From assembly GCF_004323595.1 (NCBI RefSeq), contig NZ_AP019373.1, positions 248,001-312,000 on the forward strand: a DNA stretch of 64,000 nt, in the 5' to 3' direction. The first letter of the stretch is position 1. Each line of letters opens with the position of its first letter. The translations under genes were made by a program, and so were the position numbers. Source of the DNA: Sulfuricystis thermophila. Its GTDB lineage: Bacteria > Pseudomonadota > Gammaproteobacteria > Burkholderiales > Rhodocyclaceae. Positions 5,277-57,766 of the stretch are shown here, piece after piece. A model generated the notes under the pieces. It was not told the DNA's origin. It saw only the letters and a program-made list of their open reading frames with translations, and did not search any database.

Positions 5277-5699
5277 ATGGCGTTTCTCTTCACTCCCGAG
5301 GCGAGCCTCGCCGGCCTGCTGCTCGCCAGTTTCCTCGCCGCGACGCTGCTACCGGGTGGCTCCGAAGCCGTGTTTCTCGCCGTCGTGCTCGGTCATCCCG
5401 AACAGGCCGCTGCCGCGCTGTTGCTGGCGACGCTGGGCAATACGCTGGGCGGTATGACCACTTATGCGCTGGGGCGCTGGCTGCCGCAGAAAGTCGGCGC
5501 TGACAAAACGGCACGCGCGGTCGTCTGGCTGTGGCGGCATGGCGCGCCGCTGCTCGTGTTCGCCTGGGCGCCGTTGATCGGCGACGTGCTGTGTGGCGCC
5601 GCCGGCTGGCTGCGCCTTCACTGGCTGCCTTGCCTGCTGTGGATGGCCCTCGGCAAGGGGGCGCGTTACACCGTGCTGCTCTGGGCGGCGGCCGGCTGA
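5277..5699 (+). CDS. Small membrane protein, YqaA/DedA-like (SNARE-associated family)
   Basis: The 140-residue protein has about four hydrophobic segments and the family pattern LPGGSEAVFLAVVL, GNTLGGMTTYALGR and WAPLIGDVLCGAAGWLR. YqaA-type proteins are inner-membrane relatives of DedA transporters; the substrate is unknown. Repeat copy 1 lies inside at 5490-5515 and encodes KVGADKTAR between GRWLPQ and the conserved WRHGAP stretch, where I would expect a shorter linker. The gene diverges from ilvA with a 46-base gap. Confidence 0.8.
   Translation: MAFLFTPEASLAGLLLASFLAATLLPGGSEAVFLAVVLGHPEQAAAALLLATLGNTLGGMTTYALGRWLPQKVGADKTARAVVWLWRHGAPLLVFAWAPLIGDVLCGAAGWLRLHWLPCLLWMALGKGARYTVLLWAAAG
5490..5515 (+). 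repeat. Interspersed 26-bp repeat, copy 1
   Basis: Matches the repeat consensus (AAAGTCGGCGCT, six bases, ACGGCACG) with 4 mismatches, all in the middle block. It lies in the yqaA-like gene and is read as KVGADKTAR. Confidence 0.75.
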
Positions 5700-5759
5700 T
5701 GCCCGTTCCCCTGCAGACGATCAGTTAGAATTTGCTGCCTTGCAGCGAAAGCCGATGCC

Positions 5760-8700
5760 ATGACCGCCCGCCTCCGGGAAATTCCCTACAACACCACCTC
5801 GTTTTCCGACCGCGAGATCGTCATCCGCCTGCTCGGCGAAGAGATGTGGGCGGTGCTCGACGCGCTGCGCAGCCAGCGTGTCACCGGGCGCTCGGCGCGC
5901 ATGCTCTACGAGGTGCTCGGCGACATCTGGGTGGTGCGGCGCAACCCCTATCTCGAAGACGACCTGCTCACCTCCCGGGCGCGGCGCGAGGCACTGATCG
6001 GCGCGTTGCGCCACCGGCTGACCGAGATCGAGAAGCGCCGCCAGGGCAATGAAGAGGTGGCCCGACTGCTCACCGCCGCAGACAAGGCGGTGAATGATTT
6101 CGCGCGCTGGTTCGACGATACCGCCAGCTTGCGCCGGCGCGTCATGGAGCGCCTTTCGCGCCACACACGCCGCGACAATATCTGCTTCGACGGTCTGAGC
6201 CGCGTTGCCCATGTGACCGATGCGACCGACTGGCGCGTCGAATACCCCTTCGTCGTGCTGACGCCGGACAGCGAGGAAGAAATCGCGCCGTTGGTGCGCG
6301 GCTGCATCGAGCTGGGGCTGACCATCATCCCGCGTGGTGGCGGTACCGGTTATACCGGCGGGGCCGTGCCACTCGATCCCCGCTCGGCGGTGATCAACAC
6401 CGAGAAGCTGATCGACATGGGACCGGTCGAGGAACGCGTGCTGCCGGGGCTGGATCGCCCCTATGCGACGATCCGCACCGGGGCCGGCGTGGTCACGCGC
6501 CGGGTCATGGAGCGCGCCGAAGAAGCCGGCCTGGTGTTCGCCTGCGATCCGACCTCGGCCGATGCTTCCTGCATCGGCGGCAACATCGCGATGAACGCCG
6601 GCGGCAAGAAGGCAGTGTTGTGGGGCACCGCGCTCGACAATCTCTCCTCGTGGCGCATGGTCGACACCGAGGGCCGCTGGCTCGAGGTCGAGCGCCTCAA
6701 TCACAATCTGGGCAAGATCCACGAGCAGGAGACGGCGACCTTCCGCATCCGTCGTTTCGCCGACGACGGCAGCATCGAGCGCGAGGAGACCCTGGAAGTC
6801 CCTGGGACCCGCTTTCGCAAGACCGGGTTGGGCAAGGACGTCACCGACAAGTTCCTCGCCGGCCTGCCGGGGGTGCAGAAAGAGGGCACCGATGGTCTGA
6901 TCACCTCGGCGGTGTGGATCCTGCACAAGATGCCGCCGGTGCAGCGCACCGTCTGCCTCGAATTCTTCGGCCAGGTACGCGATGCGGTACCTGCCATCGT
7001 CGAGATCACCGACTACTTCAAGCCCGGCGGCGCCGGGCTGGCGGCGGGGGTGAAGCTCGCCGGCCTCGAACATCTCGACGAACGTTATGTGAAGGCGGTC
7101 GGTTATGCGACCAAGGCCAAGCGCCACGGCCGGCCGAAAATGGTGCTGCTCGGCGACATCGTCGGCGAAGACGAAGATGCGGTGATGCGTGCCACCTCGG
7201 AAGTGGTGAAAATGGCCAACCGGCGCGGCGGCGAGGGCTTCATTGCCGTCACGCCCGAGGCGCGCAAGCAGTTCTGGCTCGACCGCGCCCGCACCGCGGC
7301 GATCTCGCGCCATACCAACGCTTTCAAGATCAATGAGGACGTCGTCATCCCCCTGCCGCGCATGGGCGATTATTGCGACGGCATCGACCGGCTGAACATC
7401 GAGCTGTCGATCGCCAACAAGCTCGCCCTGTGCGATGCACTCAGCGAATTCCTAAGTGGGGATCTGCCGTTGCACGTCGGCGATGCGGGGCTTTCCGGCC
7501 GGGCGCTGATCGGCGAGCGGCGCGAGCTGGCGCTCGCCGCGGTCGCCGAGGTGCGCGCGCGCTGGCAAGGGCTGCTCGACGACCTCGACACCCACTTCCC
7601 GGCGCTGCAGGATCACAGTTTGCGCGTGTCCTGGAAGACCGAGCTCAAGCCGCTGCTCGAAGAAATCTTCGCGGGTGATGCTTACGCCCCGACACGCGCG
7701 CGCATCGAGGCGATCCACCAGGAAGTGCTGCGCGGCCGCCTGTTCATCGCGCTGCACATGCACGCCGGCGACGGCAACGTGCACACCAACATCCCGGTCA
7801 ATTCCGACAATTACGCGATGCTGAAGACGGCCAGCGAAACCGTCGACCGCATCATGGCGCTGGCGAAATCCCTGGGCGGGGTGATTTCCGGCGAGCATGG
7901 CATCGGCATCACCAAGCTCGACTATCTTGCCGACGCGGAGCTCGAACCGTTCCGCGAATACAAGCGCCGCATCGATCCGCAAGGGCACTTCAACAAAGGC
8001 AAGCTCCTGCCCGGCGCCAATCTCGCCAACGCCTACACGCCGTCGTTCGCGCTGCTCGGCATCGAGTCGCTGATCATGGAGCAGTCCGAGATCGGCAAAA
8101 TTTCCGACATGGTCAAGGACTGCCTGCGCTGCGGCAAGTGCAAGCCGGTCTGCTCGACGCACGTGCCGCGTGCCAACCTGCTCTACAGCCCGCGCAACAA
8201 GATCCTCGGCGTCGGCCTGCTGATCGAGGCCTTCCTGTATGAGGAGCAGACGCGGCGCGGCATCTCGCTCAGGCACTTCGAGGAATTCGGCGACATTGGC
8301 GACCACTGCACGGTCTGCCATCGCTGCCTCAAGCCCTGTCCGGTCGACATCGACTTCGGCGACGTCTCGATCGCGATGCGCAATTTCCTGCGCCGCGCCG
8401 GCAAGAAGAAGACGTCGATCGGCACGAAACTGGCGATGGCCTTCCTCTCCGCCACCGATCCCGCGCGCATCCGGCTGCTCAAGCGCGGCATGATCGATCT
8501 CGGCTACCGGGCGCAGCGGCTGGGCCACGCCATGGCCAAGACGTTCGGCTTGACGCAGGAGACGGTGCGCCATCCGCCCGCCTCGCTCGGCCGGCCGACG
8601 GTCAAGGCGCAGGTGATCCATTTCCTCAACAAGCCGATGCCGGCCAATGTGCCGCGCCGTACGGCGCGCGCGCTGCTCGACATCGAGGATGGCGCGACGA

Positions 8701-9530
8701 TTCCGGTGATCCGCGACCCAAACCGCGCCGCGGAAGACAGCGAAGCGGTGTTCTACTTCCCCGGCTGTGGTTCGGAGCGGCTCTTCTCGCAAGTGGGGCT
8801 CGCCACGCAAGCGATGCTCTGGCATGTCGGGGCGACGATCGTGCTGCCGCCGGGCTACCTCTGCTGCGGCTACCCGCAGACTTCCGCCGGAGAGGAAGAC
8901 AAGGGCACGATGATCACGACGCAGAACCGTGTGCTGTTCCATCGCGTCGCCAACACGCTCAACTATCTCGACATCAGGACCGTGATCGTTTCCTGCGGCA
9001 CCTGCCTCGACCAGCTCGAAAAGTACGAATTCGAGCGCATTTTCCCCGGCTGCCGGCTCATCGACATCCACGAGTATCTGATGGAGAAAGGCATCCGGCT
9101 CGACGGTGTGCCCGGCACGCGCTATATGTACCATGAGCCCTGCCACACGCCGATGAAGCTCTACAACGGCACACAGGTTGCCAACCGGCTGCTCGGCAGC
9201 CGCGTCGATCTCAACGACCGCTGCTGTGGCGAATCCGGTACGCTGGCGGTGACACGGCCCGACGTGTCGACGCAGGTGCGCTTCCGCAAGCAGGAGGAGA
9301 TCGTCGCCGGCATCGCCAAACTCGGCGCTGGCGAGACGTCACCGGTGACGACGAAGATCCTGACGAGTTGTCCGTCATGCCTGCAAGGGCTGGCGCGTTA
9401 CCGCGAGGACGTGCCGATCGAGGCCGATTACATCGTCGTCGAACTCGCGCGCCACATCCTTGGGCCGGACTGGCTCGACCGCTATGTCGCTGCCGCCAAC
9501 GCGGGCGGCATCGAGCGCGTCCTACTCTGA
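5760..9530 (+). CDS. Fused FAD-linked oxidase / Fe-S oxidoreductase with DUF3683 N-terminus
   Basis: The 1256-residue protein joins the GlcD and GlcF functions of 2-hydroxyacid dehydrogenases. After a DUF3683-like N-terminus come the PCMH FAD-binding domain ([14 protein letters not shown], about residue 192), the FAD-oxidase C-terminal domain ([14 protein letters not shown] about 667; GEHGIGITK about 711), two 4Fe-4S motifs ([11 protein letters not shown] about 788; [12 protein letters not shown] about 850) and two CCG domains (CCGYP about 1035; CCGESGTL about 1155). It probably oxidises a D-2-hydroxyacid such as D-lactate or glycolate and passes electrons to the membrane chain. The substrate is not determined. 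Repeat copy 2 lies near the C-terminus. Confidence 0.88.
9318..9343 (+). repeat. Interspersed 26-bp repeat, copy 2
   Basis: 4 mismatches to consensus. Its first 21 bases are identical to copy 4. It lies in the fused oxidoreductase gene and is read as KLGAGETSP, just before the conserved segment [12 protein letters not shown]. Confidence 0.6.
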
Positions 9531-9853
9531 GCTCACCCGCGCCCTTCCACTGATTCGGTCGATCTCGATCTCCAGCTCGCAGTATTCGGTCTGCGGCTCG
9601 ATCGGCGTCGGATCATCGGCGCAGGAGCAGCCGGCGAGGATGCCGGAAAAGAAGATGCCGACCTTCGCGGTGATGCATTCGGCATCGGCGCATGCGGCCA
9701 GCAACAGCACGGTCGGCGGCTCGTCGGTCACCGTGCTGGTGCTTCGCAGCGCCTGTTGCAGCGGTAGCTCGGCGGCCTGCGCGGCCAGCTCGCCCTTGAG
9801 CACGGCAGCGAAGTCGGGTGTACCCCAGGCACGCGACGATGCGGGCAGAAACA

Positions 9854-9854
<1 letters not shown>
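9522..9854 (-). CDS. Conserved hypothetical protein, cysteine-containing
   Basis: A 110-residue protein beginning [20 protein letters not shown]. Visible features are a hydrophobic [11 protein letters not shown] segment, [19 protein letters not shown] with a CxC pair, and an acidic [10 protein letters not shown] tail. I recognise it only as a small conserved betaproteobacterial protein and have no function to assign. Its ATG overlaps the stop codon of the upstream Old Yellow Enzyme remnant (TGATG at 9856-9852), so it was probably translated with that enzyme. Its 3' end overlaps the convergent oxidoreductase gene by 9 bases. Confidence 0.75.
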
Positions 9855-10790
<936 letters not shown>

Positions 10791-10794
<4 letters not shown>

Positions 10795-11210: not shown

Positions 11211-11212
11211 CG

Positions 11213-15457: not shown

Positions 15458-17118
15458 ACCCTGCGATGCCATCAGCCCTCGATCTGCCGCCGACCAGCAC
15501 GGCGGCTGTGCCGCATTTCAGCACGCTGCCAGCCTGCCGCGAGTGGATCGACCGCCTGCCGATGGCGAATCCCTCACTGGCGCAAAAAATGCTGCTCGAC
15601 GAGCTGCGGCTGTTGAACGGCTATACGCTGCCGGCCCCGCTGCGTTTGGAACTGCTCGAAGCCCTGCAAACGCCGTTGCGTTTCGTGCAGGAGGAGAGCA
15701 CAAGCCTTTTCAGCGGCAAATCGTTACCCCTGGCGCCGATCGAGCAGACGGCGCTCGAAACGACCCATGCGCTTTGGCAGGCGGCGCTGATCGGCTATCT
15801 GCGCTGTCTGGAGGTCGTGCTGCGCGGCGATGCGGGTTTTCTGCCCAAGGCGGCCCTCGTCTGTGAGCGTGCCCTGGCGATCCTGATCGTCGATTTCGCC
15901 GACCTGACGCGCGGCGGTTGGCAGGCGGATGCGTCGCTGTGGCGCTTCGCCCATTTGCTTTATTCGAGTGCCGAAACGCTTGGCGTGGTGCACGCGCCCG
16001 TTACCGATCCCTTCCACAGCGAGGCTGGCGCGCGCCCCGTGTCGCCGACGATGGCCTATGCCGAGCTGGCGTTGCTGGCGACCGCCGGCTTGCACGAACT
16101 GACCCCGCGCCAGCAGCGCTGGGTGATGCGTTGGGCGCGCCAGTGGTCGGTAAAGCTGAAAGTGTCGGCGGAGGTCCCGCCGCTGGACGCGGCATTGCCG
16201 CTGTGCGTCGATCTCGCCCAGGATGCGCCGCCCAGCTATTTGCCACATAGCGGCCCCGGTGCGCGCTGGCTGGAGACCAGCGCACTGCGCCTGAGCATGC
16301 AAAAACGCATCGTGCTGCTGGCGAAAAATGATCCGGGGATGACGCCGGCCAGTCTCGGGCTGGGCGAGGATTGCACGATGCCTGCCACGCTCGAAGTGCT
16401 GCAACGCGTTTATCCGCGTTGGGTCAAGGGAGGTGTGCAGCGTCGCTACACCCGCCATCCGCTGAGCGGTCATTGCCGGTTCGTGGCCGGGGGCGACGCG
16501 ATCCATTATTACCTTTCGGGCCGCAAGCCATTCAGACCGCCGGGCAGTCTGTCGGAGGAGACGCTGCGACGGCAGCGCGAAACGGTGGCGATGCTGGAAG
16601 GCGAGACGGTCGAATTCTTGGAAGAGACCAGCCGGGAATTGGGGTTCCAGACCGAAAGCTGGACGGTCGCCGAGGACTGGGGCCTGTCGGATCGGTCCGA
16701 CGGGGGGCTTTGTCTTACGCGGCCGATCGAGCGCGAAGGCGGGCGGCTCGCGATTGGCCAGCTGGTCGCGGTACAGCCGGCCGGCTCCGGTGAATTCATG
16801 CTCGGGGTAGTGCGCTGGACGCAGCGGCGCGGCAATGAACTCGTCGCAGGCATCCAGCTCATCCCCGGCCGGCCGGAGCCGGTTGCCGTCCGGCGCACCG
16901 GCGTGATGGCGACGCCGGATCCGTATCGGCCCGGCTTCGTCCTGCCGGCCGTAAGCGCTGTGCAGCAGCCCCTCTCACTGATCTTGCCGCCCGGCGGCTT
17001 CAAGGCCGGGCGCATCATGGAAGTCTGGACGGCTCGTATCACCCGTCATTTCAAACTGGAGGCGCTGATCGATCGCGGCGCGGATTTCGAGAGCGCCCGC
17101 TGCGTCGAGGTGAGCTGA
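15454..17118 (+). CDS. PilZ-like domain protein, putative c-di-GMP effector
   Basis: A 554-residue mostly helical protein without a signal peptide. Near residue 330 is RRYTRHPLSGHC, resembling the first PilZ motif (RxxxR). Near residue 412 is DRSDGGLCL, which fits D/NxSxxG, followed by a beta-rich segment GQLVAVQPAGSGEFMLGVVRW. The two motifs are further apart than in a compact PilZ domain, so c-di-GMP binding is an inference. It converges on a GGDEF-EAL gene. The start is GTG 15454, overlapping the HIT gene, or ATG 15466. Confidence 0.65.
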   Translation: MNPAMPSALDLPPTSTAAVPHFSTLPACREWIDRLPMANPSLAQKMLLDELRLLNGYTLPAPLRLELLEALQTPLRFVQEESTSLFSGKSLPLAPIEQTALETTHALWQAALIGYLRCLEVVLRGDAGFLPKAALVCERALAILIVDFADLTRGGWQADASLWRFAHLLYSSAETLGVVHAPVTDPFHSEAGARPVSPTMAYAELALLATAGLHELTPRQQRWVMRWARQWSVKLKVSAEVPPLDAALPLCVDLAQDAPPSYLPHSGPGARWLETSALRLSMQKRIVLLAKNDPGMTPASLGLGEDCTMPATLEVLQRVYPRWVKGGVQRRYTRHPLSGHCRFVAGGDAIHYYLSGRKPFRPPGSLSEETLRRQRETVAMLEGETVEFLEETSRELGFQTESWTVAEDWGLSDRSDGGLCLTRPIEREGGRLAIGQLVAVQPAGSGEFMLGVVRWTQRRGNELVAGIQLIPGRPEPVAVRRTGVMATPDPYRPGFVLPAVSAVQQPLSLILPPGGFKAGRIMEVWTARITRHFKLEALIDRGADFESARCVEVS

Positions 17119-17143
17119 AAGTCGGCGCTGGCGGGACGGCACG
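17118..17143 (+). repeat. Interspersed 26-bp repeat, copy 3 (exact consensus)
   Basis: Exact match to consensus, starting at the last base of the upstream stop codon and nearly filling the 35-bp space between two convergent genes. Its right end forms a small hairpin, GACGG (17135-17139) with CCGTC (17144-17148). CTGAAA at 17115 and TTTCAG at 17152 flank it as an outer inverted pair. It might serve as a terminator. Confidence 0.8.
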
Positions 17144-20027: not shown

Positions 20028-21410
20028 TTACACTCGTTCATCCTCGCCGGGAGGTTCGAACCAGCGCAACTGCTGCTGCATGACCTCGACCGTCGCTTCC
20101 GAAGCATCGTTGCGGCGGGCGGCGATGCGCCGGGCGAGCTCGTCGGGTGAGGCTTGGGGTGCGATCAGTTCGAATGGCACGCCCAGACGCCATGCCAGGC
20201 CGCGAAAATGGTCGCGCTCAGTGCGTCTCAGGAAGGCCGCATCGACGATCACCGACCAGCCGTCGCGGAGGATCGCCTCTGCGAGCTCGGCGAGCCGGCC
20301 ATAAGTGCGCGCATTCGCCTCTGGGGTGTAGATCGTGCCGCCGCTCGCCGCATCGGGCGCCAGGCCGAACAGCCGTTTGCGCTCGACGTCCGAGCGGACG
20401 CGCACGGTGGTGAGAAACTCGGCGCTGGCGAGACGGCACGAGGTCACGTAGGTCTTGCCGCAGCCCGATGGCCCGCAGGTGATCGCAAGGCGCGGGGGTG
20501 GGGGAGCGGTGAGCCGCAATCCTTTGGCCAGATAGCCGTTGGCTTCCGCTGCATGGCCGGAAAGTGCGGCCACCTTGGCGCGCACCATCGCGCGATAGAC
20601 GAGATAGAACCGCAGCAGCGCGAGCGCCGCGAAGTCGCCGCTCCAGACCAGCCATTCGTTGAGCAGCCAAGTGGCCAACCCCGGCTGGTCGTGGTCGAGC
20701 AGGTCGAGCAGTGTGAAGGCGATTTCGCTGGCGACGTCGATACAGCGGAAATCGGCGTTGAACTCGATGCCATCGAAGGCGACGATACGGTCGTCGAGCA
20801 GCACCAGATTGCGCAGATGCAGGTCGCCGTGGCCTTCGCGGATGAAGCCCCCGGCATGGCGGTGTTGGAATTCGCCGCGGCGGCGCAGCCATTCGGTCTC
20901 GGTCCAGGCGCGCAACCGGGCGAGCAAGGCGGCCTCGGCCGGCAACAGACGCTCCAGCTCGTCGAAATTTTCCAGCGCATCGGCACGCACGCCCTCCGGC
21001 GTGCCGAATGCCGACGCGGCCCGCGCGGCGCCGCGCTGGAAACCGGCGAGCTCACGCGCGAAGCGCGAGAGGTGATCCTGGGTCAATCCACCGCGGCGGC
21101 AGACCTGATCGAGCTGCTGCGTCTCGTCGAAACGGCGCATCTTCACCGCCGGCTCTCCGCCAAGATCGACGACGGCGAGATAGAGCTCGGGGGCGAAGCG
21201 GCGATTCAGGCGCAGTTCCTCCTGGCAAAAAAAGCGCCGTTTCTCGACCGTGCCATAGTCGAGGAAGGGCAGCGTCACCGGCTTCTTGATCTTATAGGCG
21301 AACTCGCCGGCGAGCAGCACCCAGGAGATGTGGGTCTCCCTGACTTCGACCGAGGCAGGGTCGGGCAGCGCCTGAAGGCAAGCGAGGGGCGGTTCCGGCA
21401 TAATGTCCAT
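20028..21410 (-). CDS. APH-like kinase / P-loop ATPase fusion protein
   Basis: A 460-residue two-domain protein. The N-terminal part resembles aminoglycoside phosphotransferase-like proteins: ETHISWVLLAGEFAYKIKKP, then the catalytic GHGDLHLRNLVLLDD and FDGIEFN. The C-terminal part, from about residue 310, is a P-loop kinase with Walker A GPSGCGKTY. The role of this family is unknown. Start ATG 21410 or 21401, within a palindrome shared with oxyR. Repeat copy 4 falls in the C-terminal domain and is read as CRLASAEF. Confidence 0.85.
   Translation of the reverse strand: MDIMPEPPLACLQALPDPASVEVRETHISWVLLAGEFAYKIKKPVTLPFLDYGTVEKRRFFCQEELRLNRRFAPELYLAVVDLGGEPAVKMRRFDETQQLDQVCRRGGLTQDHLSRFARELAGFQRGAARAASAFGTPEGVRADALENFDELERLLPAEAALLARLRAWTETEWLRRRGEFQHRHAGGFIREGHGDLHLRNLVLLDDRIVAFDGIEFNADFRCIDVASEIAFTLLDLLDHDQPGLATWLLNEWLVWSGDFAALALLRFYLVYRAMVRAKVAALSGHAAEANGYLAKGLRLTAPPPPRLAITCGPSGCGKTYVTSCRLASAEFLTTVRVRSDVERKRLFGLAPDAASGGTIYTPEANARTYGRLAELAEAILRDGWSVIVDAAFLRRTERDHFRGLAWRLGVPFELIAPQASPDELARRIAARRNDASEATVEVMQQQLRWFEPPGEDERV
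20415..20440 (+). repeat. Interspersed 26-bp repeat, copy 4
   Basis: 2 mismatches to consensus. It lies antisense in the ATPase fusion gene, whose minus-strand reading is CRLASAEF, immediately after the Walker A region. Confidence 0.75.
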
Positions 21411-24092: not shown

Positions 24093-24118
24093 GATGCCGT
24101 CCCGCCAGCGCCGAATGT
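24093..24118 (-). repeat. Interspersed 26-bp repeat, copy 5
   Basis: 4 mismatches, all at the two ends; the central 20 bases are identical to copy 3. It fills the gap between two minus-strand genes. Its left-block end overlaps the last base of the stop codon of the HD-domain gene, as copy 3 does for its neighbour. Confidence 0.75.
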
Positions 24119-25231: not shown

Positions 25232-25696
25232 TTATTTGCTCGAACGTGCCGTGTCAATAGCGCCGACTTTCTGCAGCGCCTCTTCGGGGGTGAGGATGGA
25301 AAACTGCCCACGAAGCCGCTGCCGCCGGTCGAGCTTCAGCAGCAGCTTGTCGGCGGTGACGAGCCAGTGCGCGTGGCCGTCACGGGCGAGTTCGAGGAAT
25401 TTCTGGTCGTCGTGATCCTTGCAGCGCGGCAAGGCAGCCGCCTGCGGTGGCACGGCGTCGACGCTTTCGGCCTGGGCAAGATAGGCCGTATAGGCGGCCT
25501 CCTGCGCAACGCTGGCGAGCGCAAACAGTGGATAGCCGAGCACGCGCTTGAATTCGGCCAGACAGGGGGCGTTGGTCAGCGCGACCCAGCGGCCGGCGAC
25601 CACCTCGCCCCACAAGGGGGCGAGGCGGCTGTCGGCAAAGACGAAAATGGAGATCAGCACGTTCGTGTCGAATACGACGCGAACGGCGGTGCTCAT
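25232..25696 (-). CDS. PIN-domain protein (COG1569-type putative toxin)
   Basis: A 154-residue protein with the PIN acidic residues in VVFDTNVLISIF, EFKRVL, and KDHDDQKFLELA. Members of this group are called putative toxins, but no antitoxin gene is adjacent. Its ATG overlaps the stop of phaC (ATGA at 25696-25693), so it is translated with the PHA synthase. The C-terminal tail LQKVGAIDTARSSK comes from repeat copy 6. Confidence 0.82.
   Translation of the reverse strand: MSTAVRVVFDTNVLISIFVFADSRLAPLWGEVVAGRWVALTNAPCLAEFKRVLGYPLFALASVAQEAAYTAYLAQAESVDAVPPQAAALPRCKDHDDQKFLELARDGHAHWLVTADKLLLKLDRRQRLRGQFSILTPEEALQKVGAIDTARSSK
25245..25270 (-). repeat. Interspersed 26-bp repeat, copy 6
   Basis: 5 mismatches, all in the six-base middle block; left and right blocks are perfect. 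It encodes KVGAIDTAR, nearly the last residues of the PIN protein. Confidence 0.75.
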
Positions 25697-27515: not shown

Positions 27516-28538
27516 TCACTCCTTGTCGTGGGTTGTCGTGTAATGGATGATGCCGTCGTCGAGGCGGTGTTGCAGCTGACCATGACTTTCCAGGTGATTC
27601 AGATGGGCGATCGCCTCGCCCATCGCGAACATCGTCTGATGCGGATCTTCGATCGGCCGGCCGAACAATACTTCGAGCAATTCGCCGGCGCTGGATGGCC
27701 GTTTGGCGCAGGCTGCCAGCAGCTCGGCGCAACGGGCATCGTGATGGGCGACGAGTTCGGCGACGCGCGCGTGAAGGCCGCGGAAGGGCAGGCCATGCGA
27801 GGGCAGCACCAGCGTGTCTTCGGGTAGCCGGGTGAGGCGCTCGAGCGAGGCGAGATACAGCCCGAGCGTGTCGAGGTGCGGTGCGGCGGCGTAGCAGCTC
27901 ACGTTGGTCGAGATGCGCGGCAGCAGCATGTCGCCGGCGATCAGCACGTTCGGATCGGCACAGTAGAGGCTGGCATGCTCCGGCGCGTGGCCGTGGCCGA
28001 CGATCACCTGCCAGGTGTGTGTGCCGATCTGCAGCCGGTCGCCGTCGAAAAGCGGCCGGAAGGTTGCCGGAATCGCCGGCACGCCGCGCCGGTAGGCGTT
28101 GCCGCGCGCTTCCAGCGCGGCACAGCGCCCGGCATCGAGACCGTGCTGGCGGAACAGCTGCACCATCGACGCGACATCGAAAGGCGGAATGCCTGCGGCG
28201 ATCGCGTGGGCGGTGAGATATTCGCCCTGCGTCATCGACAGCGGCGCGCCGGTTTCGGCCTCCAACCAGGCAGCGAGCCCCAGGTGGTCGGGATGGAAGT
28301 GGGTGACGATCTGGCGTGTCAGGTGCCGTCCCGGAAGCAGAGACTTCCAGGCCGCTTTGACACTGTCCATCGCGATGCCGGTGTCGACCGCGGTGAAACC
28401 GTCGCCATCCTCGATCAGCCACAGGTTGATGTGGTCGAGCGCGAAGGGCAAGGGCATGCGCAGCCAATGCACGCCCGGCGCGACTTCTAGGGTCGCGCCG
28501 ACGGCCGGCGGTTGGGCATGAGGATGGCTGAGCGGCAT
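27516..28538 (-). CDS. MBL-fold metallo-hydrolase
   Basis: A 340-residue protein with the zinc motif THFHPDHLG (about residue 99), GHGHAPEHASL, the AGDMLLP aspartate and SHGLPF. Members include glyoxalase II-like thioesterases. The C-terminal part (GELLEVLFGRPIEDPHQTMFAMGEAIAHL) is typical of the LACTB2-like branch. ATG 28538 is preferred over a TTG at 28565. It heads the phaC operon and diverges from liuR. Repeat copy 7 encodes SLLPGRHL just before the zinc motif. Confidence 0.85.
   Translation of the reverse strand: MPLSHPHAQPPAVGATLEVAPGVHWLRMPLPFALDHINLWLIEDGDGFTAVDTGIAMDSVKAAWKSLLPGRHLTRQIVTHFHPDHLGLAAWLEAETGAPLSMTQGEYLTAHAIAAGIPPFDVASMVQLFRQHGLDAGRCAALEARGNAYRRGVPAIPATFRPLFDGDRLQIGTHTWQVIVGHGHAPEHASLYCADPNVLIAGDMLLPRISTNVSCYAAAPHLDTLGLYLASLERLTRLPEDTLVLPSHGLPFRGLHARVAELVAHHDARCAELLAACAKRPSSAGELLEVLFGRPIEDPHQTMFAMGEAIAHLNHLESHGQLQHRLDDGIIHYTTTHDKE
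28322..28347 (-). repeat. Interspersed 26-bp repeat, copy 7 (variant B)
   Basis: 7 mismatches to the main consensus. It shares TGCTTCC in the centre and GGACGGCAC at the right with copy 14, defining a second variant. Lies in the MBL-fold gene. Confidence 0.5.
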
Positions 28539-33979: not shown

Positions 33980-35595
33980 TGTCCGTCATCAAATCGAAAC
34001 TCGATCCGCGCAGCGAGGAATTCAGGGCCAACGCCGCCGCACTGCAGGCGCTGGTCGACGATCTGCGCGAAAAATCGGCGCTGGTGGGACGGCACGGTGC
34101 GGGCGGTTCCGAGGAGGCGCGCGCCAAACATCTGGCGCGTGGCAAGCTCTTGGTGCGTGACCGCATCGACGGCCTGCTCGATCCGGGGGCGCCGTTTCTC
34201 GAAATCGCGCCGCTGGCTGCCTGGGGGTTGTATGACAATGAAGTGCCGGCGGCCGGCCTCGTCGCCGGCATCGGCCGTGTCTGTGGCGTCGAGTGCATGA
34301 TCGTCGCCAACGATGCGACGGTGAAGGGCGGCACTTACTATCCGCTCACCGTCAAAAAGCACCTCAGGGCGCAGGAGATCGCGCGCGAGAACCGCCTGCC
34401 GTGCATCTATCTCGTCGATTCCGGCGGCGCCTTCCTGCCGATGCAGGACGAGGTGTTTCCGGACAAGGAGCACTTCGGCCGCATCTTCTACAACCAGGCG
34501 AACATGTCGGCGCAGGGCATTCCGCAGATCGCCGTGGTGATGGGTTCCTGCACCGCGGGCGGCGCCTATGTGCCGGCGATGTCGGACGAGTCGATCATCG
34601 TCAAGAACCAGGGCACGATCTTCCTCGGCGGTCCGCCGCTGGTGAAGGCGGCCACCGGCGAAGTGGTGAGCGCCGAGGATCTCGGCGGCGGCGACGTGCA
34701 TACGCGCATCTCCGGCGTCTGCGACCATCTGGCCGAGAACGATCTGCACGCGCTGTCGATCGCGCGGCGCATCGTCGCGAATCTGAACTGGCAGAAAGCC
34801 GTGTCGCTGGAACTGGCCGCGCCGGAAGAGCCGCTGTATCCGCCCGAAGAGCTCTACGGCGTGATTCCGACCGATACCCGCAAACCCTATGACGTGCGCG
34901 AGGTGATCGCGCGACTCGTCGATGGCTCGCGCTTCGACGAATTCAAGGCCCGCTATGGCACGACGCTGGTCACCGGCTTCGCGCGCCTCTACGGCTATCC
35001 TGTCGGCATCGTCGCCAACAACGGCATCTTGTTCTCCGAATCGGCATTGAAGGGTGCGCATTTCATCGAGCTGTGTGCGCAGCGCGGCATTCCGCTCATC
35101 TTCCTACAGAACATCACCGGCTTCATGGTCGGTAGGAAATACGAGAACGGCGGTATCGCGAAAGATGGCGCGAAGATGGTCACGGCCGTGTCGACCGCGC
35201 AGGTGCCGAAATTCACCGTGATCATCGGCGGCTCCTTTGGCGCCGGCAACTACGGCATGTGCGGGCGCGCCTACGGCCCACGCCTGCTGTGGACCTGGCC
35301 GAACAGCCGCATCTCGGTGATGGGCGGCGAACAGGCGGCGAGCGTGCTGGCCACCGTCAAGCGCGACGGCATCGAAGCGAAGGGCGGCCGCTGGAGCAAG
35401 GAAGCGGAGGAAGCCTTCAAGGCGCCGATCCGCCAGCAGTATGAAACGCAGGGCCATCCCTACTATGCGACCGCGCGGCTGTGGGATGATGGCATCCTCG
35501 ATCCGCAAGAGACGCGACGTGCGTTGGGCTTGGGTATCTCGGCGGCGCTCAACGCACCGATCGAGCCGACGCGCTTCGGCGTGTTCCGCATGTAG
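33979..35595 (+). CDS. liuB: Methylcrotonyl-CoA carboxylase, carboxyltransferase (beta) subunit
   Basis: A 538-residue carboxyltransferase that moves CO2 from biotin to 3-methylcrotonyl-CoA. The acyl-CoA and carboxybiotin sites are seen in [33 protein letters not shown] and [33 protein letters not shown] is typical of MCC-beta. Repeat copy 8 lies near the N-terminus, encoding [10 protein letters not shown] in the linker before [10 protein letters not shown]. An in-frame TTG at 33976 is less likely. Confidence 0.95.
34071..34096 (+). repeat. Interspersed 26-bp repeat, copy 8
   Basis: 2 mismatches to consensus. It lies in liuB and is read in the second frame as KSALVGRHG, in a loop that varies among homologues. 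Confidence 0.75.
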
Positions 35596-39309: not shown

Positions 39310-40223
39310 AACTGCCGCCCGCGATCCACGTCATCGAACGTGGCTGGCTCTCTTCCAACAACATCCTGCTGTTCGACGGCGATGTGGCGACGCTGATCGA
39401 CAGCGGCTACGCCGGCCATGCCGCGCAGACCGTCGAACTCGTCGAGTCGGCGCTGGCGGGACGGCACCTGCGGCGCCTGATCAACACCCATTCGCACTCC
39501 GACCACATCGGTGGCAATGCAGCGCTCAAGCGCGCATTCGGTTGCGCGATCTTCATTCCCGCCGGTATCGAGCAACACATCCGCGACTGGGACGAACACG
39601 CCCTGCTGCTCACACCGGCGGCGCAGCGCGGCGAACGTTTCGATCATGACGGTGTCGTACGTGCGGGCGACACGCTGCGCATGGGCGGAATGGACTGGCG
39701 GGCGTATGCCGCGCCGGGACACGATCGCGACGCCCTGGTGTTCCACTGTCCCGATGTGCGGCTGCTGGTTTCGGGCGATGCGCTCTGGGAGAATGGCTTC
39801 GGCATCATCTTTGGCGAGTTGCTCGGACAGCCCGGCGCGCTCGCCGACACGCGCGCGACGCTCGATTTGATCGCCGGTCTGGAAGTCGAAATCGTGATTC
39901 CCGGTCACGGCCGGCCGTTCGCTGACGTGCCCGCCGCGCTCGAGCGCGCCTATCAGCGCCTTGCCGCCTTCGAGACTGATCCCGAACGGATGGCGAAGAA
40001 TGCCCTCAAGGCCTGCTTCGTCTTCAACCTGCTCGACCTCGGCGGACTGCCGCGCGAACGGCTGGAGAGCCATCTCGCCAGCGTGCCGCTCTTCCGCGAT
40101 GTCGGTACGCGCCTGCTGGGCATGGGCAGTGCCACGCTCGCGGACTGGCTGGTGTCCGAATTGAAGCGCGGCTGCGCTCTGGTGGAGCATGACGGGATGC
40201 TGCTGCCGACGATGGCGGCGTGA
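39306..40223 (+). CDS. MBL-fold metallo-hydrolase
   Basis: A 305-residue metallo-beta-lactamase-fold hydrolase with zinc motif THSHSDHIGG (about residue 60), APGHDRDALVF, SGDALWENG and IPGHGRPF. Coupled to liuE (ATGA), so it is the last gene of the liu operon. A thioesterase or lactonase role is possible. Repeat copy 9 encodes ESALAGRHL just before the zinc motif, at the same place as copy 7 in the other MBL gene. Confidence 0.85.
   Translation: MKLPPAIHVIERGWLSSNNILLFDGDVATLIDSGYAGHAAQTVELVESALAGRHLRRLINTHSHSDHIGGNAALKRAFGCAIFIPAGIEQHIRDWDEHALLLTPAAQRGERFDHDGVVRAGDTLRMGGMDWRAYAAPGHDRDALVFHCPDVRLLVSGDALWENGFGIIFGELLGQPGALADTRATLDLIAGLEVEIVIPGHGRPFADVPAALERAYQRLAAFETDPERMAKNALKACFVFNLLDLGGLPRERLESHLASVPLFRDVGTRLLGMGSATLADWLVSELKRGCALVEHDGMLLPTMAA
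39443..39468 (+). repeat. Interspersed 26-bp repeat, copy 9
   Basis: 3 mismatches, all at the ends; 23 central bases are identical to copy 3. It lies in the MBL gene and is read as ESALAGRH. Confidence 0.75.
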
Positions 40224-44199: not shown

Positions 44200-45225
44200 A
44201 TGCTGCCGCAAATTCTGCTCATCTTGCATGCCACCCTCATGACAGCCTGCGGTCGAGAAAGCCCGCCGACCGTTGCCGTCCCGTCAGCGCCGACTTTCGC
44301 GGTCGGCTCCGTGGCCGAGGTGGCGCTCTACCCTGAGCGCAGCGCGCCGGCAAGCGTCGTCGGCAAGCACGAAGCACGCCTGTCGGCGGAAGTTGCGGCG
44401 CCGATTCAGGCCATCCCCGTGGATGTCGGTCAGACGGTAAAGAAAGGCCAGGTGGTCGTGCGGCTCGATGCGCGTGATGCCCAGCTGGCACTGGAACGCG
44501 CCCAGGCCGCTCTGGCCCAGGCCGAGGCGCGCCATGCCCTGGCGCGGGCCCAATTCGAGCGCGCCCGGGCGTTGCGCGAAAAGAATTTCATCTCGGCGGA
44601 AGCGCTGACAGTGCGCGAAACGGAGCTCGCCGCCGCCGTCGCCGATCTGCGCGCGGCGAAGGCCCAGCGCGATACTGCGCGCCGTGCGCTGGAAAAACAC
44701 ACGCTGCGCGCGCCGTTCGATGCGGTGGTACGCGAGCGGCGCGGCCAGGTCGGGGAACTCGCCGCGCCCGGCACCGTCCTGTTGACGCTGGTGTCGCACA
44801 CCGAACTGGAACTGGCCGCGCAGCTGCAGCCGCGTGATGCGGAATCTTTGCAGCGTGCCGTCTCGGCAGCGCCGATTTTCGAGAGCGCGACGGGCCGCTA
44901 CGAACTGAAGCCGCTGCGCGTCTCCCCTGCGGTGAACCGCGAATCGCGCAGCATCGAAGCACGTCTGGCCTTCGTCGGGCCAGCGCCGGCGGCAGGTAGC
45001 GAGGGCCGGCTGGTGTGGCGCGAGGCGCAGGCGCATCTGCCGGCCGAGCTGCTGGTGCAACGCGAAGGGCGGCTTGGCGTGTTCGTCGTCGAAGGGGGCA
45101 AGGCGCGTTTCCATGCGCTGCCGCAGGCGCAGGAAGGCCGGCCCGCGCCGCTCGATCTGCCTGCGGATGCGCGCATCGTGACGCAGGGACGTCATGCCGT
45201 GCAGGATGGCCAAGCCCTGCCATGA
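44200..45225 (+). CDS. RND efflux periplasmic adaptor (lipoprotein), first system
   Basis: A 341-residue adaptor with a lipoprotein-type signal ending LMTAC at Cys17. Then come the lipoyl/barrel-sandwich halves (PIQAIPVDVGQTVKKGQVVVRLD; APFDAVVRERRGQVGELA) around a helical hairpin (about residues 85-160). It would bridge the RND pump to an outer-membrane channel. Repeat copy 10 encodes VAVPSAPTF just after the lipid-bearing cysteine. It overlaps the next gene by 4 bases. Confidence 0.88.
   Translation: MLPQILLILHATLMTACGRESPPTVAVPSAPTFAVGSVAEVALYPERSAPASVVGKHEARLSAEVAAPIQAIPVDVGQTVKKGQVVVRLDARDAQLALERAQAALAQAEARHALARAQFERARALREKNFISAEALTVRETELAAAVADLRAAKAQRDTARRALEKHTLRAPFDAVVRERRGQVGELAAPGTVLLTLVSHTELELAAQLQPRDAESLQRAVSAAPIFESATGRYELKPLRVSPAVNRESRSIEARLAFVGPAPAAGSEGRLVWREAQAHLPAELLVQREGRLGVFVVEGGKARFHALPQAQEGRPAPLDLPADARIVTQGRHAVQDGQALP
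44272..44297 (-). repeat. Interspersed 26-bp repeat, copy 10
   Basis: 3 mismatches to consensus. It lies opposite to the coding direction in the adaptor gene, which reads it as VPSAPTF. Confidence 0.7.
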
Positions 45226-48307: not shown

Positions 48308-49320
48308 AATACTGGATCCTGCTGACACTTCCCCTGCTGGTCGCCTGCGGCGAAAAGACGCCCCAGGCGGACAAGATCGACACCGGCCCGAAACTGGTGA
48401 AGGCGCTCAAAATCGGCGCTGACAGGACGGCACGTGAGCACCTCTACAGCGGGGATGTGCGTGCGCGCATCGAATCCACGCTGGGTTTCCGCGTCGGCGG
48501 CAAGATGATCGAGCGGCTCGTCGATGTCGGCGCGCCGGTCAAGCCGGGGCAGCCGCTCGCCCGGCTCGATCCGACCGATCTGCGCTTGGCATATGCCCAG
48601 GCCGAGGCCAATGCCGCGCTCGCCGCCGATGAATTGAAGCGCGCCGAAGGCCTGCGCCGCCAGAATTTCATCAGCCAGGCGGCGCTAGAAGCCAAACAAA
48701 CTGCCGCGACGGCGGCGCGGGCGCAAGCCGATCTCGCCAAAAACCAGATGGCTTACGCCACCCTCGTCGCCGATACGGCCGGTGTGATCACCGCGGTTTT
48801 GGCCGAGCCGGGCCAAGTGCTCGCCGCCGGCCAGCCGGTGTTCCGCATCGCCCGCGAAGGCGAGCGCGAGGTGGCGATTGCGATTCCCGAAGCGCAACTT
48901 TCCGGTCTTAAGATCGGCGCGGCAGCCACGGTGGAGCTGTGGGCCGGCAAAACCTATCGCGGCAAGCTGCGTGAGCTCGCGCCGGCGGCCGATCCGGCGA
49001 GCCGTACCTATGCCGCACGGGTGACCATCGTCGATGCCGATGCCGATGTCGCGCTGGGCCGCTCGGCGACGGTGCGTTTCGACGAGATGGTGCGCGAGGA
49101 GCACCTCGTGCCTCTGGCGGCAATCCTGCAACAGGGCGAGCGTCCGGCAGTCTGGGTGATCGGCGCCGATGGCACGGTCAGCTTGCGTCCGATCGAAGTC
49201 AGTCGCTATAGCGATCGCGGTGCGGTCGTCACCGCCGGCCTCGACGCAGGCGAAACCATCGTCGCCGCCGGCGCTTTCAAGCTCTCCGCCGGCGAAAAAG
49301 TGCAGGTGGCCAACCCATGA
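48304..49320 (+). CDS. RND efflux periplasmic adaptor (lipoprotein), second system
   Basis: A 338-residue adaptor with signal MKYWILLTLPLLVAC, a lipobox LVAC. The barrel-sandwich halves are IERLVDVGAPVKPGQPLARLD and DTAGVITAVLAEPGQVLAAG, flanking a helical hairpin. The beta-barrel follows (about 210-280). Repeat copy 11 encodes KIGADRTAR at about residue 36, just before the first sandwich strand. It is coupled by ATGA on both sides. Confidence 0.9.
   Translation: MKYWILLTLPLLVACGEKTPQADKIDTGPKLVKALKIGADRTAREHLYSGDVRARIESTLGFRVGGKMIERLVDVGAPVKPGQPLARLDPTDLRLAYAQAEANAALAADELKRAEGLRRQNFISQAALEAKQTAATAARAQADLAKNQMAYATLVADTAGVITAVLAEPGQVLAAGQPVFRIAREGEREVAIAIPEAQLSGLKIGAAATVELWAGKTYRGKLRELAPAADPASRTYAARVTIVDADADVALGRSATVRFDEMVREEHLVPLAAILQQGERPAVWVIGADGTVSLRPIEVSRYSDRGAVVTAGLDAGETIVAAGAFKLSAGEKVQVANP
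48409..48434 (+). repeat. Interspersed 26-bp repeat, copy 11
   Basis: 3 mismatches to consensus. It lies in the second adaptor gene and is read as KIGADRTAR, almost the same peptide as copy 1. Confidence 0.75.
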
Positions 49321-52403: not shown

Positions 52404-52451
52404 AATTGCGCCATTCCGACCCCATTTGATGTGTTTGAGCGGAGACTCACG

Positions 52452-53111: not shown

Positions 53112-53113
53112 CC

Positions 53114-53437: not shown

Positions 53438-53466
53438 ATCTTCATCCAGCATCTTCGGAGCCTGTC

Positions 53467-54792: not shown

Positions 54793-54811
54793 CTGTCCAG
54801 GAGGTGCGACG

Positions 54812-55381
54812 ATGCTGAGCCGCAAACTCGAAGTCATCAGCCCCGAAGAATATCTGCGCTTCGAAGCGCAAAGCCCCGTGCGGCACGAATACGTCAATGG
54901 CCAGATTTTTGCGATGACCGGCGCGAGCATTCGCCACAACTTGATCGCCGGCAGCATCTACGCCGCCTTGCGCAGCCATCTCAAAACCTCTCCCTGCCGC
55001 GTGATGATCGAAGGCGTCAAGCTTCATGTCGCGCGCGACAACGCCTACTACTACCCGGACGTGATGGTGAGCTGCGACCCGAAGCTGGAGAAACTCACTG
55101 CCAACGACATGGTGGTCGATCAGCCGAGCGTCATCGTCGAAGTGCTCTCCGAGTCGACCGCCGGCATCGACCGGCGCGAGAAGATGAGCGCTTATCGCAA
55201 GCTGGCCAGCCTCAAGGAGTATGTGCTCGTCGAGCAGGATCGGCGTCAGGTCGAAGTGTTCCGTCGCATCGGCGACGTCGGCTGGGAGCAGCTCCAGCTC
55301 GACGGCAGCGACGTGCTGGAGCTCGCCAGCCTCGAATTTCGTCTGCCGCTCGATGAAATTTACGAAGGCACTGGCCTGTAA
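54812..55381 (+). CDS. Uma2-family putative restriction-like endonuclease
   Basis: A 189-residue PD-(D/E)xK-fold protein: RHEYVNGQIFAMTGASIRHN at the N-terminus, YYPDVMVSCD and VIVEVLSEST holding the acidic active-site residues, and RREKMSAYRKLASLKEYVLVEQD. Uma2 genes are scattered, often in many copies, and of unknown role. The stop TAA is part of the GTAA duplication that flanks the MITE-like element. Confidence 0.9.
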   Translation: MLSRKLEVISPEEYLRFEAQSPVRHEYVNGQIFAMTGASIRHNLIAGSIYAALRSHLKTSPCRVMIEGVKLHVARDNAYYYPDVMVSCDPKLEKLTANDMVVDQPSVIVEVLSESTAGIDRREKMSAYRKLASLKEYVLVEQDRRQVEVFRRIGDVGWEQLQLDGSDVLELASLEFRLPLDEIYEGTGL

Positions 55382-55556
55382 GGAAACACTGAATAAGTCT
55401 GCTGCGCGGTCGGATGGCTTCGTTGCGCTAGGAAGGGGGAGGGGCCCTTTCCTTCCCTCCATGTCGGATGCTCGCCTATCGAGTTGATATGTCTCGCATC
55501 CTGCGCTCCGGGCGCCTTGCCCTCCGACCGCTCGCGACGACTTCTTCAGTATTTCC
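55382..55556. mobile_element. MITE-like element, 175 bp, with terminal inverted repeats and GTAA duplication
   Basis: The left end starts GGAAACACTGAATAAGTC (55382-55399). The right end, read on the minus strand, starts GGAAATACTGAAGAAGTC (55556-55539). That is 16 of 18 bases identical, and both continue into GCGGTCGGA. GTAA flanks both sides (55378-55381 and 55557-55560). It is too short for a transposase, so a full-length relative elsewhere would have to move it. The ends faintly recall IS5-type termini. The 3' end of waaA lies inside. Confidence 0.8.
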
Positions 55557-56798
55557 GTAACGCTCGATCAGCGCCAAGGTCTTCGCCGTCGCCCCGCGAT
55601 GCCGGGCGGCAAACTTTCGCCCAGCCTCGCCCATCCTGCGGCGCGCCGCTTCATCCGCCAGCAGCGTCAGCGCTTGCGCGACGAGTTCAGCCGCATCGCG
55701 AACCTGCCGCGCCGCCCCGGCTGCGAGCGCCCCGCGCGCGGCTTCGGCGAAATTGAAGGTCGAAGGCCCGATCAGCACCGGCGTGCCTTGGCTGCATGCC
55801 TCGATCAGGTTCTGGCAGCCGTAGTCGAGCAGACTGCCGCCGACGAAGGCGACCCCGTTGTCCTGTGCGGCGGCATAGTAGGCGAACAGCTCGCCCAGGC
55901 TGTCGCCGAGCCAGACCTGCATTTCCGGCGCGATGGGGCGATTTTCCGAGCGTCGCTGCAGTGTCAGTCCGCGCGCTTCGATCAGCTTGGCCACCTCGTC
56001 GAAACGCTGCGGATGGCGTGGCACGATGACGAGGAGTGCCGTCCGCTGAGCGCCGACTTTCAGCCAGGCATCAAGGATCATGGCTTCCTCGCCTTCCCGC
56101 GTGCTCGCGCACAGGAACACCGCTCGCTCGCCGATCAGCGCCCGGAAATCGGGCAGATCGTCGACAGGGGTGACATCGAACTTGAGATTGCCGAACACCT
56201 CGACGGCCGGCGCTCCCAGTTTGCGCAGACGCCGGGCGTCGTCTTCTCCCTGTGCGGCGATCGCCGCCAGCCCCGCGAGTGTTGCGCGCGTCAGGCGGGG
56301 AAAACGTGCATAGCGCCGCGCCGATTTCTCGGAGAGCCGCGCATTGACGAGCAGCAAAGGAATGCCGGCATCGCGGCAGGCCGCGACCAGATTCGGCCAG
56401 AGCTCGGTCTCCAGCACGATGCCGAGCGTCGGGCGGAAATGGGCGAGGAAGCGGCGCATCGCCCAGGGCAGGTCGTAGGGCAGATAGACGTGCTCGACCG
56501 CATCGCCGAATAACGCTTTGGAAGTCGCGCGACCGGTCGGGGTCATATGGCTGATGAGGATGCGATGGCCAGGATAGCGGGCGCGCAGCGCGGCGACGAG
56601 CGGCTGGGCGGCGCGGGTCTCACCCACCGAGACCGCATGGAGCCACAAAGTCGGCGTAGGCAGAGCGGCACGAAAGACGCCGAAGCGCTCACCCCAATGG
56701 CGCAGGTATTGCGGCTGCCGTCGCGCGCGCCAGAGAAGATGCAGCAGCGCCCACGGCAGCAGCAGATGGAGGGCGAGGGTGTAGAAAAAGCGCGTCAT
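55476..56798 (-). CDS. waaA: 3-deoxy-D-manno-octulosonic acid transferase
   Basis: A 440-residue glycosyltransferase that attaches Kdo to lipid A at the inner membrane. An N-terminal membrane anchor (FYTLALHLLLPWALLHLLW), the HAVSVGETRAAQPL loop, LETELWPN and FVGGSLLDYGCQN are seen. The last 26 or so residues (NTEEVVASGRRARRPERR onward) are encoded by the MITE-like element and have no family counterpart. Repeat copies 12 and 13 also lie in this gene. It overlaps waaC (TGATG). Confidence 0.93.
   Translation of the reverse strand: MTRFFYTLALHLLLPWALLHLLWRARRQPQYLRHWGERFGVFRAALPTPTLWLHAVSVGETRAAQPLVAALRARYPGHRILISHMTPTGRATSKALFGDAVEHVYLPYDLPWAMRRFLAHFRPTLGIVLETELWPNLVAACRDAGIPLLLVNARLSEKSARRYARFPRLTRATLAGLAAIAAQGEDDARRLRKLGAPAVEVFGNLKFDVTPVDDLPDFRALIGERAVFLCASTREGEEAMILDAWLKVGAQRTALLVIVPRHPQRFDEVAKLIEARGLTLQRRSENRPIAPEMQVWLGDSLGELFAYYAAAQDNGVAFVGGSLLDYGCQNLIEACSQGTPVLIGPSTFNFAEAARGALAAGAARQVRDAAELVAQALTLLADEAARRRMGEAGRKFAARHRGATAKTLALIERYGNTEEVVASGRRARRPERRMRDISTR
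56035..56060 (-). repeat. Interspersed 26-bp repeat, copy 12
   Basis: 5 mismatches, four in the middle block. It is read in waaA as KVGAQRTAL, before LVIVPRHPQRF. Confidence 0.7.
56647..56672 (+). repeat. Interspersed 26-bp repeat, copy 13 (divergent)
   Basis: 5 mismatches, in the middle and the adjoining ends of both blocks. It lies opposite to waaA, which reads it as RAALPTPTL just before the conserved HAVSVGE. Weaker than the others. Confidence 0.45.
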
Positions 56799-57766
56799 CA
56801 GCCGAGCAGCTCGAGTGCGGCGTGCACCACTTCGGCCGACGTCGGCGCCTGTTTCGGCCCGCCCAGATTGCGGTGCGGCGCCGTGCCGAGCACGCCGGTG
56901 AGCCTTGGGTCGGAGGCGCAATAAATCGCCAGCGTGGGCCGTCCCAAGGCAGCGGCCAGATGCACGAGGCCCGTATCGACGCCGACGACCAGCTTCGCCC
57001 CCGCCAACAGCCCGGCCAGCTCGGTCAGATTCATCGCCGGCGCGGCGATCGCCCTTCCTAACTGCTGCGCGAGCCGGCCGGCGCGCGCACGCTCGGCATC
57101 CGAGCCCCCGGGGAGCACGCAGCGCAGACCGGTGGCGATCAGCGCACTGCCCAGCGCGCGCCAGTCGTCTTCCGGCCATTCCTTGTCGGCGCGGCTGGTG
57201 GCAGTGAGCAGCACCGCATAATCCCCACGCGGCAGCCAGGCCGCTTTCAATGACGGCGCGGCGATCCCATAGTCGAGCGGCAGATCATCCAGCCGGTAAC
57301 CCAACGCGCCAGCGGCCAGTAGCCGGTTGCGCGTCACGGCATGCAGATCGCGCGGCACCTCGACCGCGACATCGTAGGCAAGCGCTGCCACAGCCTCGCG
57401 CGGCGAGGCAAAGCCATACTTCTTGCCACGCGCCAGCGCCGTCAGCAATGCGCTCTTCACCAGCCCCTGCGTGTCGACCACCCCATCGTAAGCGGCAAAC
57501 TCTGTGCTTCCAGGACGGCACACCGCGCGTCGATAGGCCATGAACTCACGCCAGCTCTGCGCGGCAAACGGCGCTTTCCGCCAGCGTCGCACCGCCACCG
57601 GAATCACGCCGCTCACCGCCGGATGCAGGCGCGGAATCTCGGCGAAACTCTCTTCCACCACCCAATCGATCTCGGCCTGCGGCAGCGCGCGGCGAATGTC
57701 GCTCACCACCGGCAGATTGTGGATCACGTCGCCGAGCGACGAGGTCTTGACGAGGAGGAGGCGCAT
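56798..57766 (-). CDS. waaC: Lipopolysaccharide heptosyltransferase I
   Basis: A 322-residue GT9 enzyme that adds the first heptose to Kdo2-lipid A. Features are LLVKTSSLGDVIHNLPVVSD at the start and VVGVDTGLVHLAAALGRP near the end. Between YRRA and YDGVVDTQGL it holds VCRPGSTEFAA from repeat copy 14, apparently longer than the linker in relatives I remember. ATG 57766; upstream in-frame starts overlap the intergenic space. Confidence 0.93.
   Translation of the reverse strand: MRLLLVKTSSLGDVIHNLPVVSDIRRALPQAEIDWVVEESFAEIPRLHPAVSGVIPVAVRRWRKAPFAAQSWREFMAYRRAVCRPGSTEFAAYDGVVDTQGLVKSALLTALARGKKYGFASPREAVAALAYDVAVEVPRDLHAVTRNRLLAAGALGYRLDDLPLDYGIAAPSLKAAWLPRGDYAVLLTATSRADKEWPEDDWRALGSALIATGLRCVLPGGSDAERARAGRLAQQLGRAIAAPAMNLTELAGLLAGAKLVVGVDTGLVHLAAALGRPTLAIYCASDPRLTGVLGTAPHRNLGGPKQAPTSAEVVHAALELLG
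57497..57522 (+). repeat. Interspersed 26-bp repeat, copy 14 (variant B)
   Basis: 7 mismatches to the main consensus but only 5 to copy 7, with TGCTTCC and GGACGGCAC shared. It lies opposite to waaC, which reads it as CRPGSTEF; copy 4 gives CRLASAEF in the same frame. Confidence 0.55.

Follow-up and report, generated by a model that had tools for sequence, protein, structure and literature searches.

The window analysed here is a stretch of 64,000 nucleotides of Sulfuricystis thermophila (NZ_AP019373.1, positions 248,001–312,000 of the forward strand). Within and between its genes recurs a word of 25–26 bp with the consensus AAAGTCGGCGCTGGCGRGACGGCAC, which, as argued below, is probably a DNA uptake sequence (Table 1). 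Copies were located with the pattern AAAGTCGGCGCT-N6-ACGGCACG, mismatches being counted over the 20 fixed positions. Twelve copies were found at up to 3 mismatches, where 0.03 were expected, and none of 100 dinucleotide shuffles of the window reached that number; allowing 4 mismatches raised the count to 14. A preliminary description had reported an interspersed repeat at 14 places, and 11 of these are among the 12 copies; the repeat itself is real. The other three places are weaker: those at 24093 and 57497 have 4 mismatches, and that at 28322 has 5 and is probably a decayed site, because clearer copies lie at the same place in two other genomes (G004 and G003). The list was also incomplete, as the reverse-strand copy at 44854–44879, with 1 mismatch, had been overlooked. 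Its third copy (17118) is exact, as reported, and the letters agree with the contiguous identities given for it, 23 bases with the ninth copy and 20 with the fifth.

Table 1. Copies of the word in the window, with mismatches to the search pattern, and their counterparts in the congeners G002 and G017
Feature	Position	Strand	Mismatches	Location	Counterpart in congener
Site	5490..5515	+	0	in predicted gene with weak VTT-domain match	identical in G002
Site	9318..9343	+	3	in FAD-oxidase/DUF3683 gene	1 difference in G002
Site, consensus copy	17118..17143	+	0	between genes (1/26 bases coding)	between G002 alignment blocks
Site	20415..20440	+	1	antisense within AAA_33 gene	1 difference in G002
Site	24093..24118	-	4		1 difference in G002
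Site	25245..25270	-	0	within PIN-domain gene	identical in G002
Probably decayed site	28322..28347	-	5	metallo-beta-lactamase-fold gene	dialect copy in G017
Site	34071..34096	+	1	within carboxyl transferase gene	identical in G002; compared across congeners
Site	39443..39468	+	3	metallo-beta-lactamase-fold gene	dialect copy in G017
Site	44272..44297	-	2	antisense in HlyD-type gene	1 difference in G002
Site	44854..44879	-	1	antisense, same HlyD-type gene as 44272	1 difference in G002
Site	48409..48434	+	1	HlyD-type gene	identical in G002; dialect copy in G017
Site	56035..56060	-	1	kdotransferase gene	3 differences in G002
Weak site, may be a chance match	56647..56672	+	3		G002 alignment only with gaps
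Weak site	57497..57522	+	4		left out of G002 comparison

The whole genome, a single contig of 2.74 Mb, contained 257 forward and 259 reverse copies (516 in total), against 1 forward and 1 reverse copy of the same pattern read backwards. Hundreds of copies thus lie on either strand, as is expected of an uptake sequence. The number did not shrink to a handful outside the window, and the preliminary description was right to propose a genome-wide repeat under selection or drive. The repeat also survived a codon control: when synonymous codons were shuffled in the window's predicted genes and the intergenic DNA was left unchanged, each of 20 shuffles held 1–4 copies, against 12 in the real sequence.

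The shape of the word was taken from a sample of 464 kb (the window plus 20 evenly spaced 20-kb stretches) that held 100 sites at up to 4 mismatches. The profile has abrupt edges at positions 1 and 25, and the 40 bases on each side carry little or no information. The two ends had been described as conserved around a variable middle. The six middle bases are indeed less conserved than most of both ends, yet they too are conserved, as GGCGRG, and the least conserved positions of the profile are 4 and 16–18. Conserved ends with a looser middle fit better with a two-block recognition site than with the ends of an element. A refined profile built from 400 kb outside the window (98 sites) reached 31 bits.

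The 100 sampled sites were placed relative to genes by a simple codon-based gene caller, which counts 86% of bases as coding. Fifty-six sites were wholly within predicted genes and 12 lay on a gene edge. The remaining 32 were intergenic, an excess with p = 1.7e-13 when only full in-gene sites are counted and p = 2.6e-6 when edges are counted as in-gene. Copies both within and between genes, with an excess between them, are typical of uptake sequences. The in-gene sites occupied 5 of the 6 frame registers, and therefore no single peptide is encoded. Sites less than 500 bp apart made up 2 of 79 pairs, fewer than the 10% expected at random (p = 0.01). No polarity along the replichores was detected, the best half-circle imbalance being 20 of the 100 sampled sites, against a mean of 17.7 in permutations (p = 0.37). 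At the low-GC end of the window (58796–63978, about 50% GC from 60001), which carries O-antigen ligase and glycosyltransferase genes, there is no copy; about one would be expected there, and its absence is therefore not significant.

The history of individual sites was followed by alignment to G002, a congener that is 81–93% identical in aligned blocks, for 14 window sites (57497 excluded). Twelve of these aligned without gaps, with 0–3 differences per site and 12 in all over 312 bases, while their flanks differed by about 12%. Within the 12 sites, 5 of 93 third codon positions had changed, compared with 3422 of 16926 elsewhere in the genes (p = 8e-5), a roughly fourfold lower rate. The conservation of third codon positions indicates that the constraint acts on the DNA and not on the protein. 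Six loci were also followed through as many as 14 congeners, where the site was present, degraded or absent in place, sometimes with small gaps. The sites are thus non-mobile and arise and decay in place, as uptake sequences do. This does not bear out the preliminary description in so far as "interspersed repeat" meant a copied element: copies share nothing beyond about 25 bp, the 12 aligned window sites differ by substitutions only, and no site was seen to arise by insertion of a unit in the compared loci, some of whose alignments had small gaps.

Related lineages carry the word in altered forms, as expected of an uptake sequence. In the congener G017, k-mer counts gave AAACTCGGCGCT and CTGGCGGGGCGG, and the profile was AAACTCGGCGCtGGCGgGGCGGCG (28 sites in 120 kb). 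This dialect stands at three of the four aligned window loci (28322, 39443 and 48409), the fourth (34071) being intermediate, which shows that orthologous copies in G017 were converted in place to another dialect. Other genera were sampled over 56–100 kb, yielding 7–20 sites each against 0–2 for reversed-profile controls. Their dialects were AAAGTCAGTCCc.gCggcACGGCG in genus g11, AAAGTCGACGcTGG.ga.ACGGCa in g69, AAAgTCGGCGCTGGtGa.ACGgCG in g88 and a form carrying CGCcGG in g70; g9, g62 and g2 were close to the S. thermophila form, with ACGGCG, the sample for g2 being weak (7 sites against 2 in its control). All dialects have a frame in common, one end being AAA-TC and the other CGGC. G017 also contains a coding stretch of short repeats around ATGTCTGGCATG, with Met-Ser-Gly-type repeats (L192:2334-2702).

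The distribution of the word among relatives is broad but patchy. Of 19 genomes of the genus, S. thermophila included, 17 have at least 190 copies, G017 has 54 and G006 has 1. The family, Rhodocyclaceae, was surveyed with the outer frame AAAGTC-N12-ACGGC at 0 mismatches, genomes with at least 30 matches being called word-rich. By this measure 49 of the 297 genomes surveyed are word-rich; these fall in 10 of 68 genera, and the other 248 genomes have at most 26 matches. G017 and G290 are poor in the strict frame, yet a looser pattern finds 286 and 507 matches in them, respectively, and they are therefore better read as dialects than as losses. G006, G194 and G277 are word-poor although most of their sampled congeners are word-rich. 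A profile search found 1 or 0 sites in G006, G194, G036 and 40 kb of G064, and k-mer counts in samples of G006 and G036 gave no replacement motif. A repeat other than the word forms what looks like a local array in G036 (L201:2023-3338), around AGGTTGGGCTGA and with GCCCAACA-type partners in either orientation.

Outside the family the word is scarce. An order-wide set of 399 genomes, 13 of them from this family, left 386 for comparison, and 385 of these had at most 8 matches. The remaining one, G384, from another family of the order, had 18 outer-frame matches (control 2), two of those listed having a consensus or near-consensus middle; the signal may have gained a small foothold there, or the matches may come from contamination. 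Among the matches listed, 63 of 80 named loci with the word are titled Rhodocyclaceae or Sulfuritalea. Two loci under other titles are a Tepidicella xavieri record with one consensus-type copy in 8 kb (L031) and a record titled Gammaproteobacteria bacterium with four exact and one weak consensus-type copies in 8 kb (L070).

Viral DNA carries the word as well. In IMG/VR contigs, at least 120 stretches held an exact 17-base version, whereas the reversed pattern occurred in 7. In 86 of 96 exact viral matches, among the matches listed, the middle was at most 2 bases from GGCGGG or GGCGAG (80 loci, a few from the same contigs). Four of five viral contigs inspected have genes matching PHROGs replication, recombination or tail families; in the fifth (L365) the one protein checked matched only PHROGs families of unknown function. 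The dialect of G028 was found in 24 viral stretches, a count that lacks its own control and from which nothing is drawn. On one contig (L385:883-2238) there are five copies, four of them in units spaced by 316 bp, and lambda-type tail genes lie a few kb away.

The S. thermophila genome has machinery for competence, in the form of a ComEC gene (TIGR00361 match of 320 bits, cut-off 190) and 14 pilin-like genes. A gene for a PilB-like ATPase, whose 473 bits fall short of the cut-off for PilB, lies near a PilA-like pilin gene, and a cluster adjoining ispH holds PilE-, FimT-, PilV- (over the cut-off) and PilY1-like (below the cut-off) genes, the names PilE, FimT and PilA being assigned from position and pilin signature. 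A crude pattern search over about one-fifth of the genome did not find ComEA, DprA, PilQ, PilT or ComM, which is not evidence of their absence. ComEC was matched in 55 of 61 relatives, whether or not they have the word, and ComEC alone therefore predicts nothing. PilE and FimT, compared in nine genomes in the search for a receptor, track neither the dialect nor the presence of the word; other pilins were only partly recovered from these genomes, and no receptor candidate is therefore claimed.

By analogy with the two known systems, we consider the repeat to be probably a DNA uptake sequence. The balance between strands, the ratio of copies in genes and gaps, the absence of common flanks, substitution in place, dialects and their conversion, patchy loss and carriage by phages match the uptake-sequence pattern. 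A surface DNA receptor, probably part of a type IV pilus, would prefer the word as a means of self-identification during natural transformation. Fragments bearing the word would be taken up and recombined more often, and copies made by point mutation would spread and be kept chromosome-wide on both strands, in and between genes, by molecular drive. A changed receptor preference would convert the sites one by one to a new dialect, and where specificity is lost the copies would decay. We infer from the pattern of copies that the word is recognised and taken up, with biased uptake as the driving force, and that the receptor is a pilin.

Of the two known systems, the DNA uptake sequence (DUS) of Neisseriaceae, with receptor ComP, resembles the word in its many copies and lineage dialects. 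Neisserial DUS occur in hundreds to thousands of copies with dialects that follow species, explained by uptake specificity (PMC3630211, PMC7371117). The AT-DUS (ATGCCGTCTGAA) and the reverse complement of the word have TGCCGTC in common, which could be fortuitous or a remnant of common ancestry. The neisserial signal is 12 bp long, whereas the word has two blocks in 25–26 bp. All DUS dialects conserve a CTG core (PMC3630211), and the reverse complement of the consensus has C-Y-C at that position. Unlike in the DUS system, a sequence search of the PDB with the PilE and FimT of S. thermophila (18 and 4 matches) returned pilins and pseudopilins, none named ComP.

The uptake signal sequence (USS) of Pasteurellaceae is a long signal whose second part consists of A/T tracts. 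The word is likewise long with a second part, but its second block is GC-rich. The USS, whose predicted receptor is ComN/PpdA, further resembles the word in a similar intergenic excess, in dialects and in carriage by phages: in Haemophilus influenzae 65% of signals lie in open reading frames against about 86% coding (PMC2346458), dialects are known in Pasteurellaceae (PMC12616744), and phages of that family accumulate the uptake signal of their host, which has been ascribed to long coevolution (PMC6776037). The USS sequences AAGTGCGGT or ACAAGCGGT, with the core GCGGT (PMC12616744), are absent from the consensus; the sequences are unrelated, and Pasteurellaceae belong to another class of bacteria than the host of the word.

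Several observations weigh against an uptake sequence. The density of the word, about 190–245 per Mb, is several-fold below that of neisserial DUS (one per 400–1100 bp; PMC7371117) and of Hin-USS (about 750 per Mb; PMC6776037). The word-poor genomes G006, G194 and G277 have a ComEC frame that is open without stops, and loss of ComEC therefore does not explain loss of the word. All nine compared genomes, whether rich or poor in the word, have PilE- and FimT-like proteins, and those of G000 differ strongly from those of G012 although the two genomes have the same dialect. No inverted pairs at terminator distance were found among the sampled sites, and the in-gene orientation bias (35 on the gene strand, 21 on the opposite strand) was not significant (p = 0.08).

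Alternatively, the word might be bound by an abundant cytoplasmic protein active in chromosome organisation, repair or segregation, and its copies might be selected for that role. Genome-wide spread, a long specific site and a short-range spacing more even than random would suit such a protein. Polar motifs such as KOPS (FtsK orienting polar sequences) or Chi-like sequences have an orientation bias along the replichores, which the word lacks. Dialect changes across the whole set of copies, scarcity in single species and the presence of the word in phage contigs also argue against a cytoplasmic binding site, and we regard it as unlikely.

A regulatory or terminator element would account for the intergenic excess and, where 31 sites were classed by flanking genes, for a small excess in convergent gaps (10 against 6.2 expected, without a significance test), tandem gaps being close to expectation (17 against 17.6). 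Divergent gaps, however, were below expectation (4 against 7.2), and more than half of the sampled sites lie wholly in genes, on either strand. Single-strand folding of the sites was no better than that of shuffles, giving no sign of a hairpin, and the window had no Rfam match; this explanation has little probability.

Repetitive extragenic palindromic sequences (REP), bacterial interspersed mosaic elements (BIME) and miniature inverted-repeat transposable elements (MITE) form many short interspersed copies. The word could be what a small element of this kind, mobile or self-copying, has left behind, to which its many near-identical copies and the 316-bp units of viral contig L385 would point. 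Unlike such repeats, the word has no palindrome and no common flanks, many of its copies lie in unrelated genes, where they are open in several frame registers, and no mobility was seen, orthologous copies remaining in place and differing by substitution. We rate a mobile origin slightly lower still. An artefact of codon usage or of a protein motif, for which a GC content of about 65% and the high coding fraction might speak, is refuted by the reversed-pattern, codon-shuffle and third-position controls, as well as by the different frames and peptides involved, and has practically no probability.

If the word is an uptake sequence, its differences from both known signals bear on its origin. On balance we lean towards a third origin of uptake specificity, in Rhodocyclaceae, with a two-block signal of 25–26 bp read by a receptor other than ComP and ComN. 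The signal would have split into at least five dialects that set up barriers to transformation among environmental species, and temperate phages of the hosts would have absorbed it. The preliminary description knew no named element with this sequence; likewise, no description of the word or of uptake sequences in Rhodocyclaceae was found among the results listed from the open-access literature, a coverage that leaves out subscription papers and preprints. As late as 2025, a paper gave two families as having uptake sequences, the Neisseriaceae and the Pasteurellaceae (PMC12616744). The word would then be the first uptake sequence outside these families, in a third family and in environmental bacteria, and would provide an independent test of why uptake sequences evolve, of how receptors read them and of how dialects change. 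Cases in point are the conversion in place in G017 and the near-complete absence of the word from G006 and G194 beside word-rich congeners. For the bacteria themselves, represented here mostly by genomes of uncultured organisms, it would mean that they are, or recently were, naturally transformable, and that DNA bearing the word could transform them.

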